From Ciborinia camelliae (taxonomy: Eukaryota; Ascomycota; Leotiomycetes; Helotiales; Sclerotiniaceae): a DNA stretch of 64,000 nucleotides. The notes under the pieces were generated by a model, which saw nothing but the letters and a program-made list of their open reading frames with translations, was not told the DNA's origin and searched no databases. A program made the position numbers and the translations under genes. Position 1 is the first letter of the stretch, and each line of letters starts with the position of its first letter. Positions 23,322 through 64,000 of the stretch are shown piece after piece. The stretch is taken from contig JANPYM010000004.1 of the NCBI GenBank assembly GCA_025890175.1, forward strand, positions 341,684-405,683, in the 5' to 3' direction.

Positions 23322-23635
23322 AGAGAAGAGGGAAGAGGGAAGAGGGAAGAGGGAAGAGGGAAGAGGGAAGAGGGAAGAGGGAAGAGGGAAGAGGGAAGAG
23401 GGAAGAGGGAAGAGGGAAGAGGGAAGAGGGAAGAGGGAAGAGGGAAGAGGGAAGAGGGAAGAGGGAAGAGGGAAGAGGGAAGAGGGAAGAGGGAAGAGGG
23501 AAGAGGGAAGAGGGAAGAGGGAAGAGGGAAGAGGGAAGAGGGAAGAGGGAAGAGGGAAGAGGGAAGAGGGAAGAGGGAAGAGGGAAGAGGGAAGAGGGAA
23601 GAGGGAAGAGGGAAGAGGGAAGAGGGAAGAGGGAA
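23322..23635. repeat. Perfect GGGAAGA heptamer array, about 44 copies
   Basis: From about 23322 to 23635 the plus strand is an uninterrupted head-to-tail run of the 7-base unit GGGAAGA, purine only. The open frames across it (EEGRGKR on one strand, LPSSLFP on the other) are arithmetic products of the repeat and are not genes. Homopurine tracts of this length can form triplex (H-DNA) structures. Confidence 0.97.
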
Positions 23636-43408: not shown

Positions 43409-44627
43409 TTAGTCTCCCCTCGCCACTGCTAGACCCTCTTCTTCTGGCATATCCTTCATACCTTCTGGGACGGAGATTGAAGCGGGAGTGGAGGTAGTGG
43501 CGCTAGTGTCATGGTCGCGAGTGGCCTTTTTTGCCTTCAAATAGTCAATAATAAATCATCAATCCATACTATCAATATACCTTATTTTCATAATAATAAG
43601 CCTTATTTCTAACCGTTATCTTCTCCTTAAAATAATCAGTAATAAATCATCAATCCATACTATCAATATACCTTATTTTCATAATAATAAGCCTTGTTTC
43701 TAACCTTTATCTTCTCCTTAAAATAGTTAGTAATAAATCATCAATCTCTACTATTAACATACCTTATTTTTATTATAATAAGCCTTACTTTTAGCTTTTT
43801 CCTTCTCCTTAAAATAGTTAGTAATAAATCATCAATCAATACTGTCAATATGTCTTATTTGCCTTTATCTTCTCCTTAAAATAGTTAGTAATAAATCATC
43901 AATCTCTACTATTAACATACCTTATTTTTATTATAATAAGCCTTACTCTTAGCTTTTTTCTTCTCCTTAAAATAATCAGTAATGAATCGCCAATCAATAC
44001 TGTCAATATGTCTTATTTGCCTTTATCTTCTCCTTAAAATAGCTAGTAATAAATCATCAATCTATACTATTAACATACCTTATATCTATTATAATAAGCC
44101 CGGCTGCCAGCTTTTCTAGCCTCCTGCTTTTTTGCCTGCTCTACCTGAGCTAACTGTGTGGAGAAGATATTATCGGCATGAGTTTCTGGAGACTATACCA
44201 ATATTAGTTAATTGCAAACCAATTATGAATGTTTGCATACTATTTCTGTATAGTGATAGAGGCTAGGGGCCATCCGAGCATGCGTCTGGGTGTGTTCAAT
44301 CTGACAATGAAGAATGACTTGGTTTCTGTCATCGAAGCGAGTCTAATTAATCATTAACTGGCTGAGGGCATGAGGGCAAGTGTCTGCAATGAACATACCG
44401 TGTCTATACATAGGCTCCCATCCTGATTAGGCATGCGACAAAAAACCTCACAATCGGGAACGTAATAGCCCTTGCGGGTAACCTGTAAACTTATGTTAAT
44501 TAGTGGTCAATCGACTATAACGATGATTCCATACACCCTCCTTATCCTTCCAATTTTCCTCCTCCCATGCTGTCATCCCCTGCGGCCGGAGTTTTAAGTT
44601 GAAATACTGATGTCTATATGGATTCAT
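43409..44627 (-). CDS. Unknown protein built from repeated 15-aa microexons
   Basis: Proposed exons are 44535-44627, 44399-44482, 44241-44342, 44079-44192, then microexons 43921-43965, 43763-43807, 43672-43716 and 43581-43625, and last exon 43409-43534, giving 232 residues. Every junction is phase 0 with GT donors, and the frame is open from MNPYRHQYFNLKLRPQGM to a TAA after EEEGLAVARGD. The N-terminal half has no known domain (TRKGYYVPDCEVFCRMPN, RNQVILHCQIEHTQTHARM). Exon 4 ends 'RKAGSRAYYNRYK', the apparent parent of the repeats EKKKAKSKAYYNKNK, EKEKAKSKAYYNKNK, EKIKVRNKAYYYENK and EKITVRNKAYYYENK: a highly basic Lys/Tyr/Asn helix. The last exon is Ser/Thr/Pro- then Glu-rich. No exon is long enough to be seen in a frame scan. 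The function is unknown. Confidence 0.72.
43535..44078 (-). repeat. Tandem intron-microexon module array
   Basis: The array is two 91-base units (45-base exon plus 46-base intron: 43581-43671, 43672-43762) and two 158-base units (45-base exon, 46-base intron, 21-base ghost exon, 46-base intron: 43763-43920, 43921-44078), closed by one more 46-base intron at 43535-43580. All seven intron units are exactly 46 bases. Introns 43717-43762 and 43875-43920 look identical. All end in TTTTAAG or TTTGAAG, with a TTACTAA/TTACTGA/TTATTGA-type branch point. Two of them (43808-43853 and 43966-44011) begin ACATAT instead of GTATAT/GTATGT. Confidence 0.9.
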
Positions 44628-57800: not shown

Positions 57801-59963
57801 ATTGATCGGGTAAATAACAAATATTTTTTTATTTTCAAAATATTAATAAACCAAACAATTCTTTATTTTTTTTTAGTGTAAATGTAATTTTCAAATTAAA
57901 TATAAAAGTTATAATAAATATAAAATAAATTGGATGTAAAATTTATATTGATGTATTTATAATATTAAAGTAATCTTCGAATTTATTGTATTACAAATTC
58001 AAATACAAACTTTATATCCGCTATAATTTATATTCGATTATATGTTGAAATTTGTAATTATTTATATTTTATTAAAATTTCAAATATGATATATAATAAA
58101 TAATTTGATATTATTAATTTTAAAATCTTTTTTTAATATATTTTATATTTATTTTATAATTGTATTGAATATTATTAGTTTTGTAAATAATTGAAATAAT
58201 TAATATAAAATAATTAATAATATTCTTTATATTAATATTATTTGTTAATAATATAATTATAATATTCTTTATTATCAATTAATAATTTTTATTATTAATA
58301 ATATTTAATTATTATTTATTTTATTATAATATTTTATTTATTACTAATATATTTTAAACCTAAAATATAATCCAATCTATTAGATTTATATTATTCATTT
58401 GTTTTATTTAATATTTATATCTATCCTTTTTTTTTAACTTTATTCTTATATTTAATTATTATAATTTCAATAAAAAATATAATTTAAATATTTCTTATTA
58501 ATATATAAATTAGATTTTATTTAAAACATTATATTAAAATAATTTATATCTAATAAATACTTTATTAATTTATTTTTTCTCCAAAATATTATAAGGAAAT
58601 TATAATAAAAAATTAAAATTATAAATAATAAAGATTAATAATAATACTATAAACAATTAATTAAATAAAATATATTAAATCAAAAAATTTTAATAAAACA
58701 ATAAAAACTTATTTTTTCAAATATTTCTTTTTTATTTAATAACTAATTCGATTTTTATCTAATTTATATCTTTTCCAAAACTTACTTTTTCATACCTCAC
58801 TATTTTCAATTTCATTATTACCCATATTATTCATTTATATTATCTATATTACTTATTAACTTTTTTCAATATTCAATAAAAAATTATTTTATATTACTTT
58901 TTTTATATTTTTTTTTTATAAAATAAATTTAATTTTATTTATTAAAAATATATCAATCTTATCATCAAAAATTATTGAAAAATAAAATTTACATATTTAA
59001 AAATATATAAAAAAAAAATCTTACTTACAAAAAAACAAAAAAATAAAAAATATTTATTTAAAATAATAAAATATTTAAACTTATTAAATAAATAAATATA
59101 TTTTTATTCTATTTTATTATTTTACATTATTATTTTTTTATTTATTTTATATTAAAACTATATCAACTTTTGTATTATTAAATAAATATTAAATAATATT
59201 TATCAAATTTATTTTTATCTATATTTTCAGATTTTTAGAAAATATTAAGTATATATTTAATATTTTTATTAATATAAAATAATTTAAAATTAATATTTTA
59301 AATAATTATTAAATTAATAATTATTTAAAATAATAATAAAACATTTATATTATCTATAATATTTTAAATTTATTTACAAAATATAACATTTAATAATAAA
59401 AAAATAATATAAAAATAATAATATATTATAATCGCTAAAAATTATTTATTTCGGAATTGTTTATCTTTTTATTCAAATTTAATATAATTATAAATATTAT
59501 TAAAATATCAATCGAAAATCTATATTTACTCTTTAAATTTCCGATTTTTTTATCAAAATTATAAAATTGCAATATAATTTTATATTTCAATAAAACTATA
59601 TTTAAAAAAGTTTTTTAAAAAACATTAAATCCTAATTTTATAAATAATAAAATATTATATTTAAAAACTTATTAAATATTTAATTATATATATTCAATAA
59701 TTTTAAATTTTATTTCATTTAATTTCTTTTATTAAATTTCATTATCAATCGATATTTGAATTATTTGTAAATATAATTAATTTATCTAAATTATTTTTAA
59801 TTTTCAAAAAATATAAAAAATAATTATTTTATATTTTAAATAATTAAAAAATCCTTAATTAAAATAAATATTAATATAATAAAATTAAAATTATAATTAA
59901 TATATAAAAATCTATACTTTTATCTACAAACTAATATTATATATTAAAATTGTTGGATAAATC

Positions 59964-60058
59964 ACGTGCCTACGGCACGCTTGCGCAAGCGCAGCGTACG
60001 GCCGCGGCGTGCTGCTACGCAGCACCCCCGCGCTACGACGCTAGCTTGCGCTAGCGGG
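59964..60058. other. GC-rich chain of hairpins inside AT block
   Basis: A 95-base island made of adjoining inverted repeats: CGTGCC-TAC-GGCACG (59965-59979), the perfect palindrome GCTTGCGCAAGC (59979-59990), GCCGCGGC (60001-60008), GTGCTG-CTACG-CAGCAC (60009-60025) and GCTAGC-TTGC-GCTAGC (60040-60055). Such back-to-back GC hairpins are typical of GC clusters and double-hairpin elements in fungal mitochondrial DNA. The next 120 bases are also less AT-rich than their surroundings. Confidence 0.75.
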
Positions 60059-62104
60059 CATATATAGTTGATCTGTAGCATAGTTTTCAAAGCTTCGAGC
60101 CAAATACACTGCATACTATAGTACATTTGTTCTCCATCGCCCATAGTGATTCCAACAAAAATTTTTACCCATATTATAAATTTCATTTTTTCAATAATAA
60201 AAACTTAATATACAATAATTTTTATTATTTTACAAAATAACAATTAAATTTTATAATTAAATATTAAATATTAATAATTTCAACAATAACAATATTAATA
60301 TTACAATATAACAAAAAAATATTTATAATATTTTTTATATATAAAATAAATATATTAACTATATATTTTTTAAATATACAAATTATTTAAAAAAAAAGAT
60401 TTATAAATATTAATTAATTAAAAATTTATAATAAATCCTAAATATTTATAAATATTATTTATAATATATATCTAATAATTAAATATAATTTTTAAACAAA
60501 CTTTGTTATATTATTATATTATTATTATATTATAATTATACTATTATTGCTATCAATATATTATTTTTAATTAATATATCGAATAAAATTTTTAATTTTA
60601 AAAATTTATATAAAAAAAGTTTTATTTATTATAATCATTTATATATATTTATATATATTAATTATAATTAATTATTTAATAAAAATCAATAGAAAATATA
60701 AATATTTATTTATTTTTGAAATTATTAAAAAAATACATTTATAATATAAATTTTAATAAAAATAATAATATTATTAGTTTTAATAAATTTATATATTAAA
60801 TCAATATATTTTATTATTATATAAATATTAATTTGAATATATATAATTATTGAAAAATATATTAATAAATATAAATTAATCTAAATCTTATCGCATCGTT
60901 TATAAATATATTTTATTTATTTATACAATTAATATTAATTATATACAATATTAAATTTTTTTATTAAATTCCAATCTTATTTTTTTTTTTAATTAAAAAC
61001 AAAAAATATATCATTATACTTTATTATTCTATTATTTCCAATCAAAATAATTCAGATTTTGAAATTATATTATATTTTATTAATAATAACAAAATTATTT
61101 ATTATAATTAAATTCAAAAAATCAATAATAAATTATATTCAAAAATCGAAATATATTTTAAAACGAATACTTACATCATAAAAATTTGAATTAAAGAAAT
61201 ATATTGAATAATAATTAATATTTAAAAATAATATAATATTATTATATAAAGTTTAATAAATTTATTATAATAAATCAATAAAACTTTTAATAAAAATAAA
61301 AAATATAATAAAGATTTAAATAATAATTTTATAAATATTAAATATTATAAATTATTATATATTTCAATTTTTTTATTATTTTTCAAATATTAAAAATTAT
61401 AAACAAAAAAAATATAAATATATAAATATTAATATAATAATATATTTTTTTATAAAACAATAAACAAATAATATATTTAAAATTAAATAATTAAAAATAA
61501 TTAATAAACAATTTTTTATAAAAAATCTTAAAATTATATTTATAAAAATTTAATATTTCAATTATAATATAATAAAATATTATTTTTTAAAATATTTTTT
61601 AATTTAAATTTAAATAACTTTTTATTTTATTTTAATATAAAATTACAGAATTTTGTATTAATAAATATAATATATAAATATTATATTAATAAAATATTTA
61701 ATTTAAATATTTTTTAATTTTTTTTTAAATTTATTATTTTTAATTTTATAATAAAATTTTGTTTTAAAAAAATCTTAATTTTAATAATTAAAGCAAATAC
61801 TTTATATTTTTTAAATAATATTTTTTAAATAAAAATAAAATTGAATTAAAAAATTGATTTATATTTATATTATTTAATTATAATAAAATTATTTTAATTA
61901 AATATAATATATTTATATAATATATTTATATAATACTAAATTTATTTAATTAATATATTAAAATTATTAAATAATATTTATCCTTAAATTAATAATATTT
62001 AATATTTAATAATCTTTTTTAAAAACTTTTTTAATATTTATTAAAAATTTATTTAAAATATTTAAATTTTTGTAAATCATAAATAATTTGAAAATATTAA
62101 TTAT

Positions 62105-62300
62105 TTATATCGATTCATCTCAGGGTAATGAATATACATATGTGGTAGTAAGGTAACCAGCAATATAGGTATTAAATCTTTTGTAGTATTAATGATGTTT
62201 TAGCTAAGAGGGTGTGGGTGGGAGCACCCTAATATAGATGTATGCCGCGCCTAGTGTTACATTAATATATACATAGACGAAATTATGTGATAGGGTTATA
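62105..62300. other. Second less AT-rich island
   Basis: About 195 bases with ordinary base composition, including AGGGTG-TGGGTGGGAG-CACCCT (a six-base inverted repeat) and GCCGCGCC. There is no open frame of note. It stands alone in sequence that is otherwise nearly pure A and T. Confidence 0.65.
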
Positions 62301-62542
62301 TAATTAACAAAAGTAATCTTTATTATAATATTAATATTTTTTCAAAATTAAATTAATTATATATATATATAAATAAAAGTTTGCAAAAAATTTGAATAAA
62401 AAAATCTATTTCATTTATTCGCTAATTTATTATTTGTATTAAAATGTAATATATTGGGGTATTATTTTAAACTTTGTAAATACAAAATGCTATATATTAT
62501 TTTTATTTATTCCTAATAATTTAAAATCAAAAAGTTAAGAAA

Positions 62543-62573
<31 letters not shown>

Positions 62574-64000
62574 ATTTATTAACTTTAAATTTATAATAAT
62601 TAATATTAATAAAATTTATTAATACTGAATAATATTTCGATTTAATTATAATATTAATTAAATTAATATTATTGTTAATTCATTTAACTTTTATAATTTT
62701 TTTTTGTTTGTAAGATTGTTAAAAATATATAATATTAATTATTAGTTTTTTTTTTATAATAATGTTAAGTTTTATAATACAATTATAAAATAATTTGAAA
62801 TTGATATATACAATAAATAATATAATAATTAATATAATTTTGTTAATAATATTTTTAAATATAATAATAATATTAAAGTTTAATATTAAAGCATAAAGTT
62901 TGGTGATTAATATATTATATATTATTTTTTTGTATTTAATAAATAATCAATAAAGAATATTGGTATTTCTGGATTTATTAATTAATATAATAATATATTC
63001 GATTTACAAAAAATAATCTTTATTATTAATAAATAATGTATTAATAAATATAATAAATTGAAAAAAGTTAATATTAAAAAATATAAATATAAATTTTTTT
63101 GTAATATTATTTTTTTATTATTAAAATTGTTTATTTAAAAGTTTTATATTTTTTTAATAAAATTAATAATTTATATAACAAAAAAAAGATTATATATTAA
63201 TTTTAATTGGAAAATTATATTAATATAAATAATATAAGTTTATTAATTAATAAATTGATTTTTTAAAATAGTTTTTTTTTATATTTTATCTTTATTTTTT
63301 AATATATTTTAATAATAAATTTAAATAAATCAAATTCATTTAATCTGATTTTTCTAAATTAAATAAATATATTTTTTTTAAATCTAAATAATAATATAAT
63401 TGTTAAATCAAAAAAACATTTCAATAATAATTTATTTTTTAGATTTTAAAAGAAATTTAATTTTGTTTTATTTAATTTATTTAAATATAATAAATATTAA
63501 ATTAATAATAATAAAAATATTATTAATTTGTAATCCAATAAAACCAAAATTATTTATAATTAAATAAAACAAATATACATTATAAATCAAAACAATTATA
63601 TCAAATTTATTAATATAATAATTTTAATATATATAAAACCAATAATTTCCAATTTTAAATATTTTATAAAAAAATTTATAAACAAAAAATATTTTATTTT
63701 ATAACAATTCCATTTTAATTAACAAATAAATATAAAAAAATTAAGTTATTTTTATAGTAGACTATATATAAACTTAAAAAATATCTTAAAACAAAATTAT
63801 TAAATTTTTTTTTTCCAAAAATTAATATAAAAAATTAATAATAAATATTAATTATATTATTAAATTATAAATAATTAAATAAAAATAATAATTTTTTTAT
63901 TATTATTATATATTTATATAATTAATCTAAATTTTTCAAAAATTTTATTTATTTTTAAATTTTTGATTTTATTAATAAATCAAAAATTGAAAATTCTTTA

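Follow-up and report, generated by a model that had tools for sequence, protein, structure and literature searches.

A tandem array of exon-intron modules with lost splice donors in a predicted gene of Ciborinia camelliae

How does a gene come to alternate short, similar coding pieces with similar intron-like units, and which of these pieces can still be spliced? The question is raised by a 589-base array on the minus strand (44123-43535) of a 64,000-nucleotide stretch of DNA (contig JANPYM010000004.1, referred to here as the window) from Ciborinia camelliae, a fungus that infects camellias, where the array forms part of the predicted gene NHQ30_003610. The best explanation of the whole locus, and in our judgement a probable one from the sequence, is that a module made of an exon end and the intron behind it was copied in tandem within this gene, and that a donor was then lost and a composite of two modules duplicated.

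The array consists of five 91-base and two 67-base modules, arranged head to tail. Each of the seven copies joins an exon end, 45 bases long in the 91-base form, to a unit of 46 bases; the exon part of the two short modules lacks 24 bases, an in-frame deletion that leaves 21-base pieces with one mismatch to exon x5 carrying the same deletion. The pieces between the seven 46-base units measure, in order, 21, 45, 21, 45, 45 and 45 bases, all exon pieces are multiples of three and all junctions are in phase 0. Tandem Repeats Finder gave periods of 91, 67 and 158 bases on the array, and a repeat search placed 158-base copies at spacings of 91, 91, 158 and 158 bases. These periods and the in-register copies lend good support to the proposal of an earlier note on this DNA, made from the letters alone, that the gene grew through tandem duplication of an exon end and the intron behind it.

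Upstream of the array, on the same strand, lie exons e1 (44535..44627, 31 codons, starting with ATG) and e2 (44399..44482, 28 codons), followed by e4 (44079..44192). The last 45 bases of e4, EARKAGSRAYYNRYK (44123-44079), are themselves a seventh exon copy, and for this reason the array is taken to start at 44123. They differ at 12, 13, 15 and 17 of 45 positions from the four intact copies and are the likely founder of the 15-residue unit, in agreement with the note, which had taken the end of the normal upstream exon as the ancestor. Then follow unit i1 (44033..44078), the 21-base piece x1 (44012..44032, EKIKANK), i2 (43966..44011), the 45-base exon x2, EKKKAKSKAYYNKNK (43921..43965), i3 (43875..43920), the 21-base piece x3 (43854..43874), which is identical to x1 and also reads EKIKANK, i4 (43808..43853), exon x4, EKEKAKSKAYYNKNK (43763..43807), i5 (43717..43762), exon x5, EKIKVRNKAYYYENK (43672..43716), i6 (43626..43671), exon x6, EKITVRNKAYYYENK (43581..43625), and i7 (43535..43580), which holds the last acceptor before the terminal exon (43409..43534; AKKATRDHD...ARGD, stop). 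All 46 bases agree between i3 and i5 (the note, too, had seen two identical intron copies), and i1 is two bases off both.

The splice signals of the seven units were read against the consensus in a figure legend of PMC6616335 (donor GURWGH, branch point DYURAY, acceptor HAG). The donor GTATGT is found only in i1, i3 and i5; i6 and i7 begin with GTATAT, outside GURWGH, and i2 and i4 with ACATAT, so that GT is present in five of the seven predicted introns and a consensus donor in three. All seven end in AAG. In six of them, i2 included, a YTRAY branch point lies 10 bases before the end, where i1 has a damaged CTAGC; i1 keeps weaker matches, the nearest being ATTGAT, 24 bases from its end. Donor and branch point are both of consensus form in i3 and i5. 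As a yardstick, introns were sought at 30 protein-kinase loci, where 27 exon pairs were tried, 20 yielding an intron and seven none; 18 of the 20 ended in YAG, 16 had G at +5 and none began with GTATAT, a weak comparison because the introns were picked by a rule that favoured YAG and G at +5.

Because i2 and i4 are without a GT donor, the 21-base pieces x1 and x3 are most likely dead microexons. Splicing of i1 or i3 alone, with the GT-less unit retained, would end the frame at once (EKIKANK-TY-stop), and the next GT of i2 and i4 lies 11 bases in, downstream of an in-frame TGA. In the simplest productive reading, the GTATGT donor of i1 would be spliced to the acceptor of i2 and that of i3 to the acceptor of i4, burying each 21-base piece in a 113-base intron. 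A spliceosomal twin intron (stwintron) was considered for the 113-base stretch and rejected by reading, with no systematic stwintron scan, since removal of i1 brings AAG next to GAGAAG, which does not recreate a donor.

A protein search with the predicted product returned the 168-residue C. camelliae protein of NHQ30_003610 (P0001) at E 1.2e-63, and three proteins in all reached E ≤10 among 106 candidates. P0001 corresponds letter for letter to e1, e2, e4, x2, x4 and the terminal exon, and its gene model spans both 21-base pieces by means of 113-base introns. It is probably an automatic model; the terms 'RNA-seq' and 'NHQ30' are absent from the main text of the mitogenome paper (PMC10512376). 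The opposite strand offers no alternative, as each of the three plus-strand frames over the array has several stops. Further upstream, within an intron of the deposited model, a 102-base minus-strand stretch (44241..44342) is open, in phase 0 and bordered on either side by GT-AG stretches with consensus donors; the codon score prefers another frame there, and a cassette exon at this place appears doubtful.

What kind of protein would such a gene encode? A preliminary 200-residue version of the product, joined without e1, gave no Pfam family at E ≤10, and P0001 gave only surE among NCBIfam models (E 0.043, far below its cut-off); an HNH nuclease domain was found in neither of these scans. P0002 and P0003, the further matches of the query, and the relatives of P0003 (seven proteins listed, P0003 included, with 7995 scored) contain basic repeats roughly 15 residues long. 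When the in-frame units were compared with these proteins, P0002, P0003, P0008 and P0009 scored 59.7, 41.3, 39.0 and 33.8 bits, and the shuffles reached at most 28.3 bits; there were 300 shuffles per target, in which the residues within a unit were reordered identically in all units. Four of five targets thus beat all 300 of their shuffles, showing an order-specific 15-residue pattern, and P0008 and P0009, found through P0003, are the cleaner controls because the query itself had found P0002 and P0003.

The unit resembles the basic repeat of otherwise unrelated proteins, which share a KAYYxxNxEK-like pattern with a period of 15; a point of difference is that the array gene has its repeats spread over separate exons. 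A Pfam scan of five repeat proteins found an HNH domain in one of them, P0009, whereas neither HNH nor another Pfam domain was found in the array product; a TolA match of P0003 (NCBIfam, E 6e-5) was far below its cut-off and was put down to composition. Four related repeat proteins, P0003-P0006, share a longest contig of the same size (164,343 bases), perhaps one contig, and may form a local family of varying repeat number. AlphaFold2 run on P0001 alone predicted one long helix (residues 61-138; mean predicted local distance difference test score, pLDDT, 63.8; predicted template modelling score, pTM, 0.35), with means per ten residues of 85-95 across residues 81-130, where the repeats lie. Fifteen residues of helix measure about 22 angstroms. 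Such a product would be basic, with a single long helix lengthened by about four turns with each repeat, and might perhaps bind nucleic acid.

The copies are similar enough to be compared in blocks. The composite x1-i2-x2-i3 differs from x3-i4-x4-i5 at seven of 158 bases, five of which fall within the donor-less i2 and i4; the excess there (5/46 against 2/112 elsewhere) gives a Fisher p of 0.02, with a split picked after viewing the data. The pair x5-i6 and x6-i7 differs at five of 91 bases. Over the last 30 bases i4 is the same as i3 and i5, and i2 differs, which suggests exchange between copies. Both composites share ACATAT and the 24-base deletion, and by parsimony we infer that exon shortening and donor loss came before the duplication of the 158-base composite.

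The gene may then have ended, in its ancestral form, with exon e4, a 46-base phase-0 intron and the terminal exon. Slippage or unequal exchange would have produced several copies of the 91-base module made of the last 45 bases of e4 and this intron, each copy adding 15 residues with the frame intact, because exon and intron are both in phase 0. One copy would have lost 24 exon bases and the GT of the next intron, after which an intron, a 21-base piece and a crippled intron would act as a single 113-base intron, and this 158-base composite would later have been duplicated as one unit.

Several results weigh against this history of module copying in a coding gene. The deposited model omits x5 and x6 by a 228-base intron, and hence speaks for no more than two copies in addition to the founder; moreover, it derives from the same assembly as the window and for that reason is not independent support. 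Among the exon copies there was no third-position excess, and the rate of non-synonymous change (dN) was below the synonymous rate (dS) in four of six pairs and above it in two, with 15 codons in each. Given the observed number of changes, the probability that none of the five 45-base copies would acquire a stop without selection is 0.30. The array acceptors are all AAG, as opposed to YAG in 18 of the 20 yardstick introns (where the choice rule rewarded YAG), a fifth repeat protein, P0007, did not pass the shuffle control (six of 300 shuffles reached the real score), and the AlphaFold2 helix is weak evidence because a lone lysine-rich sequence readily yields a confident helix.

These points lead to the strongest rival, a decaying minisatellite in which the gene model is an artefact or a pseudogene and the open exons are leftovers. 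It is unlikely but has to be taken seriously: there is no clear sign of purifying selection, two donors are lost, two more are off consensus and one branch point is damaged, and a protein search with e1, e2 and e4 gave a single match, the same gene, and no other relative. On the other side stand the order-specific repeat match to four of five targets and the codon scores, in which the coding frame was the best of six in eight of eight exons (the six of P0001 plus x5 and x6), although e1 was entered two bases short and the other frames often lose through stops. The terminal exon scored 14.9 bits and e4 7.6 bits, both good values, and e2 a poor -6.3 bits. On balance, a coding gene, possibly an expressed one, is more probable than a decaying locus.

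Supposing that the copied modules are coding, their number and splicing might have a use. In a rather improbable extension of module copying, the unit of expansion would be a complete spliceable module, copy number and splicing would together tune one basic helix in 15-residue steps, and the donor-dead composite would meanwhile spread by duplication, turning exons into intron. It is likewise improbable that the array serves as an isoform device, in which skipping among phase-0 exons gives helices of different length. Every donor and acceptor is in phase 0, and the four 45-base exons would by arithmetic allow 16 productive subsets; against this, splicing to the acceptor of i1 or i3 runs into a stop codon, and intron definition is generally known as the main splicing mode in fungi. 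A fungal precedent is the repeat protein SP7, with five transcript versions (PMC4617103).

The earlier note had read all seven 46-base units as phase-0 introns and the 21-base pieces as exons. The seven units, their sizes and their phases held up, and branch points in six of the units, AG in all and lengths that suit phase 0 speak for removal of every unit. However, i2 and i4 (44011-43966 and 43853-43808) start with AC, have no donor and reach their next GT only past the in-frame TGA, and both 21-base pieces are left out of the deposited model, so that a seven-intron gene with these pieces as microexons is very improbable and their status as exons is not supported.

An introner-like mobile intron inserted repeatedly would account for several near-identical introns within one gene, but it is hardly credible, because the exon parts were copied along in register and all seven matches to the intron core (≤3 mismatches, 46.2-Mb genome) lie inside the array, with no near-identical copies at unrelated genes. 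The repeat peptide gave five matches at E ≤10, all of them in the array, and there were two weak protein matches on other contigs, C11 and C1 (E 0.32 and 0.92). As the DNA flanking the array on both sides matched only itself in a first-look genome search, whose counts are lower bounds, and the repeat peptide matched the array alone, a paralogue or transposon origin was rejected, and the array stands as a single locus at the sensitivity used.

Two features elsewhere in the window were recorded. From position 58000 to 64000, and for 10 kb or more past it, the G+C content drops to 3-14%; this tract of at least 16 kb may be a regional centromere or a region eroded by repeat-induced mutation. At 23325-23635 (311 bases) the heptamer GAAGAGG occurs in 44 perfect copies and is open in several frames, one frame of the minus strand reading (LFPLPSS)n.

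Arrangements of a similar kind are known. The fibrillar collagen genes of animals, which are ancient, have phase-matched exons of 45 or 54 bases with one or few repeats each, as in the array. In the C. camelliae array coding and intron sequence were copied in register, the coding status being model-based, and the frame was kept across copies, as expected of internal tandem exon-intron duplication. The statement in the earlier note that no named system of this type exists in fungi was too strong, since PMC3443670 already names tandem genomic duplication as a route to new introns, with 188 events, the fungus Cryptococcus included, and cites Gao & Lynch 2009. Such cases, to which the potato RNA-dependent RNA polymerase gene may be added (PMC4974935), resemble the array in their inherited splice signals and added introns; here, by contrast, a single array holds seven short copies, some of which a later loss of donors would have merged into longer introns.

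For this second step the closest parallel is rtnA of Aspergillaceae, where a 15-24-base exon was intronised, with stwintrons (PMC6616335); there too, loss of splice sites fused a microexon with the introns on either side into one longer intron. In C. camelliae, however, the corresponding change sits within a tandem array and has in turn been duplicated, and a stwintron was not seen (by reading, with no systematic scan). The micro-exon genes of schistosomes, an animal gene family, share the tandem symmetrical short exons in multiples of three (6-36 bases; PMC4699917), whereas the intact exons of the array have 45 bases and its 21-base pieces are without a donor. SP7-like effectors of Glomeromycotina are fungal repeat proteins of variable repeat number, with transcript versions in SP7 (PMC11333574 and PMC4617103); compared by description, they have a conserved intron before the first repeat and the array gene has introns between repeats. 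Judged by eye, the N-terminus of the array protein, MNPYRHQYFNLK, looks non-hydrophobic and shows no evident signal peptide. An identical fungal case was not recognised in a literature search of limited depth.

Copying and microexon intronisation are thus processes already known, and the array is a fungal case with built-in microexon decay. The rise of new exons, the multiplication of introns and the loss of microexons are legible in a single 589-base stretch, apparently a young one, whose copies are similar enough for the events to be put in order. If the gene is transcribed, it would offer a test of how the fungal spliceosome picks among near-identical neighbouring introns, and variation of copy number among strains would become testable.
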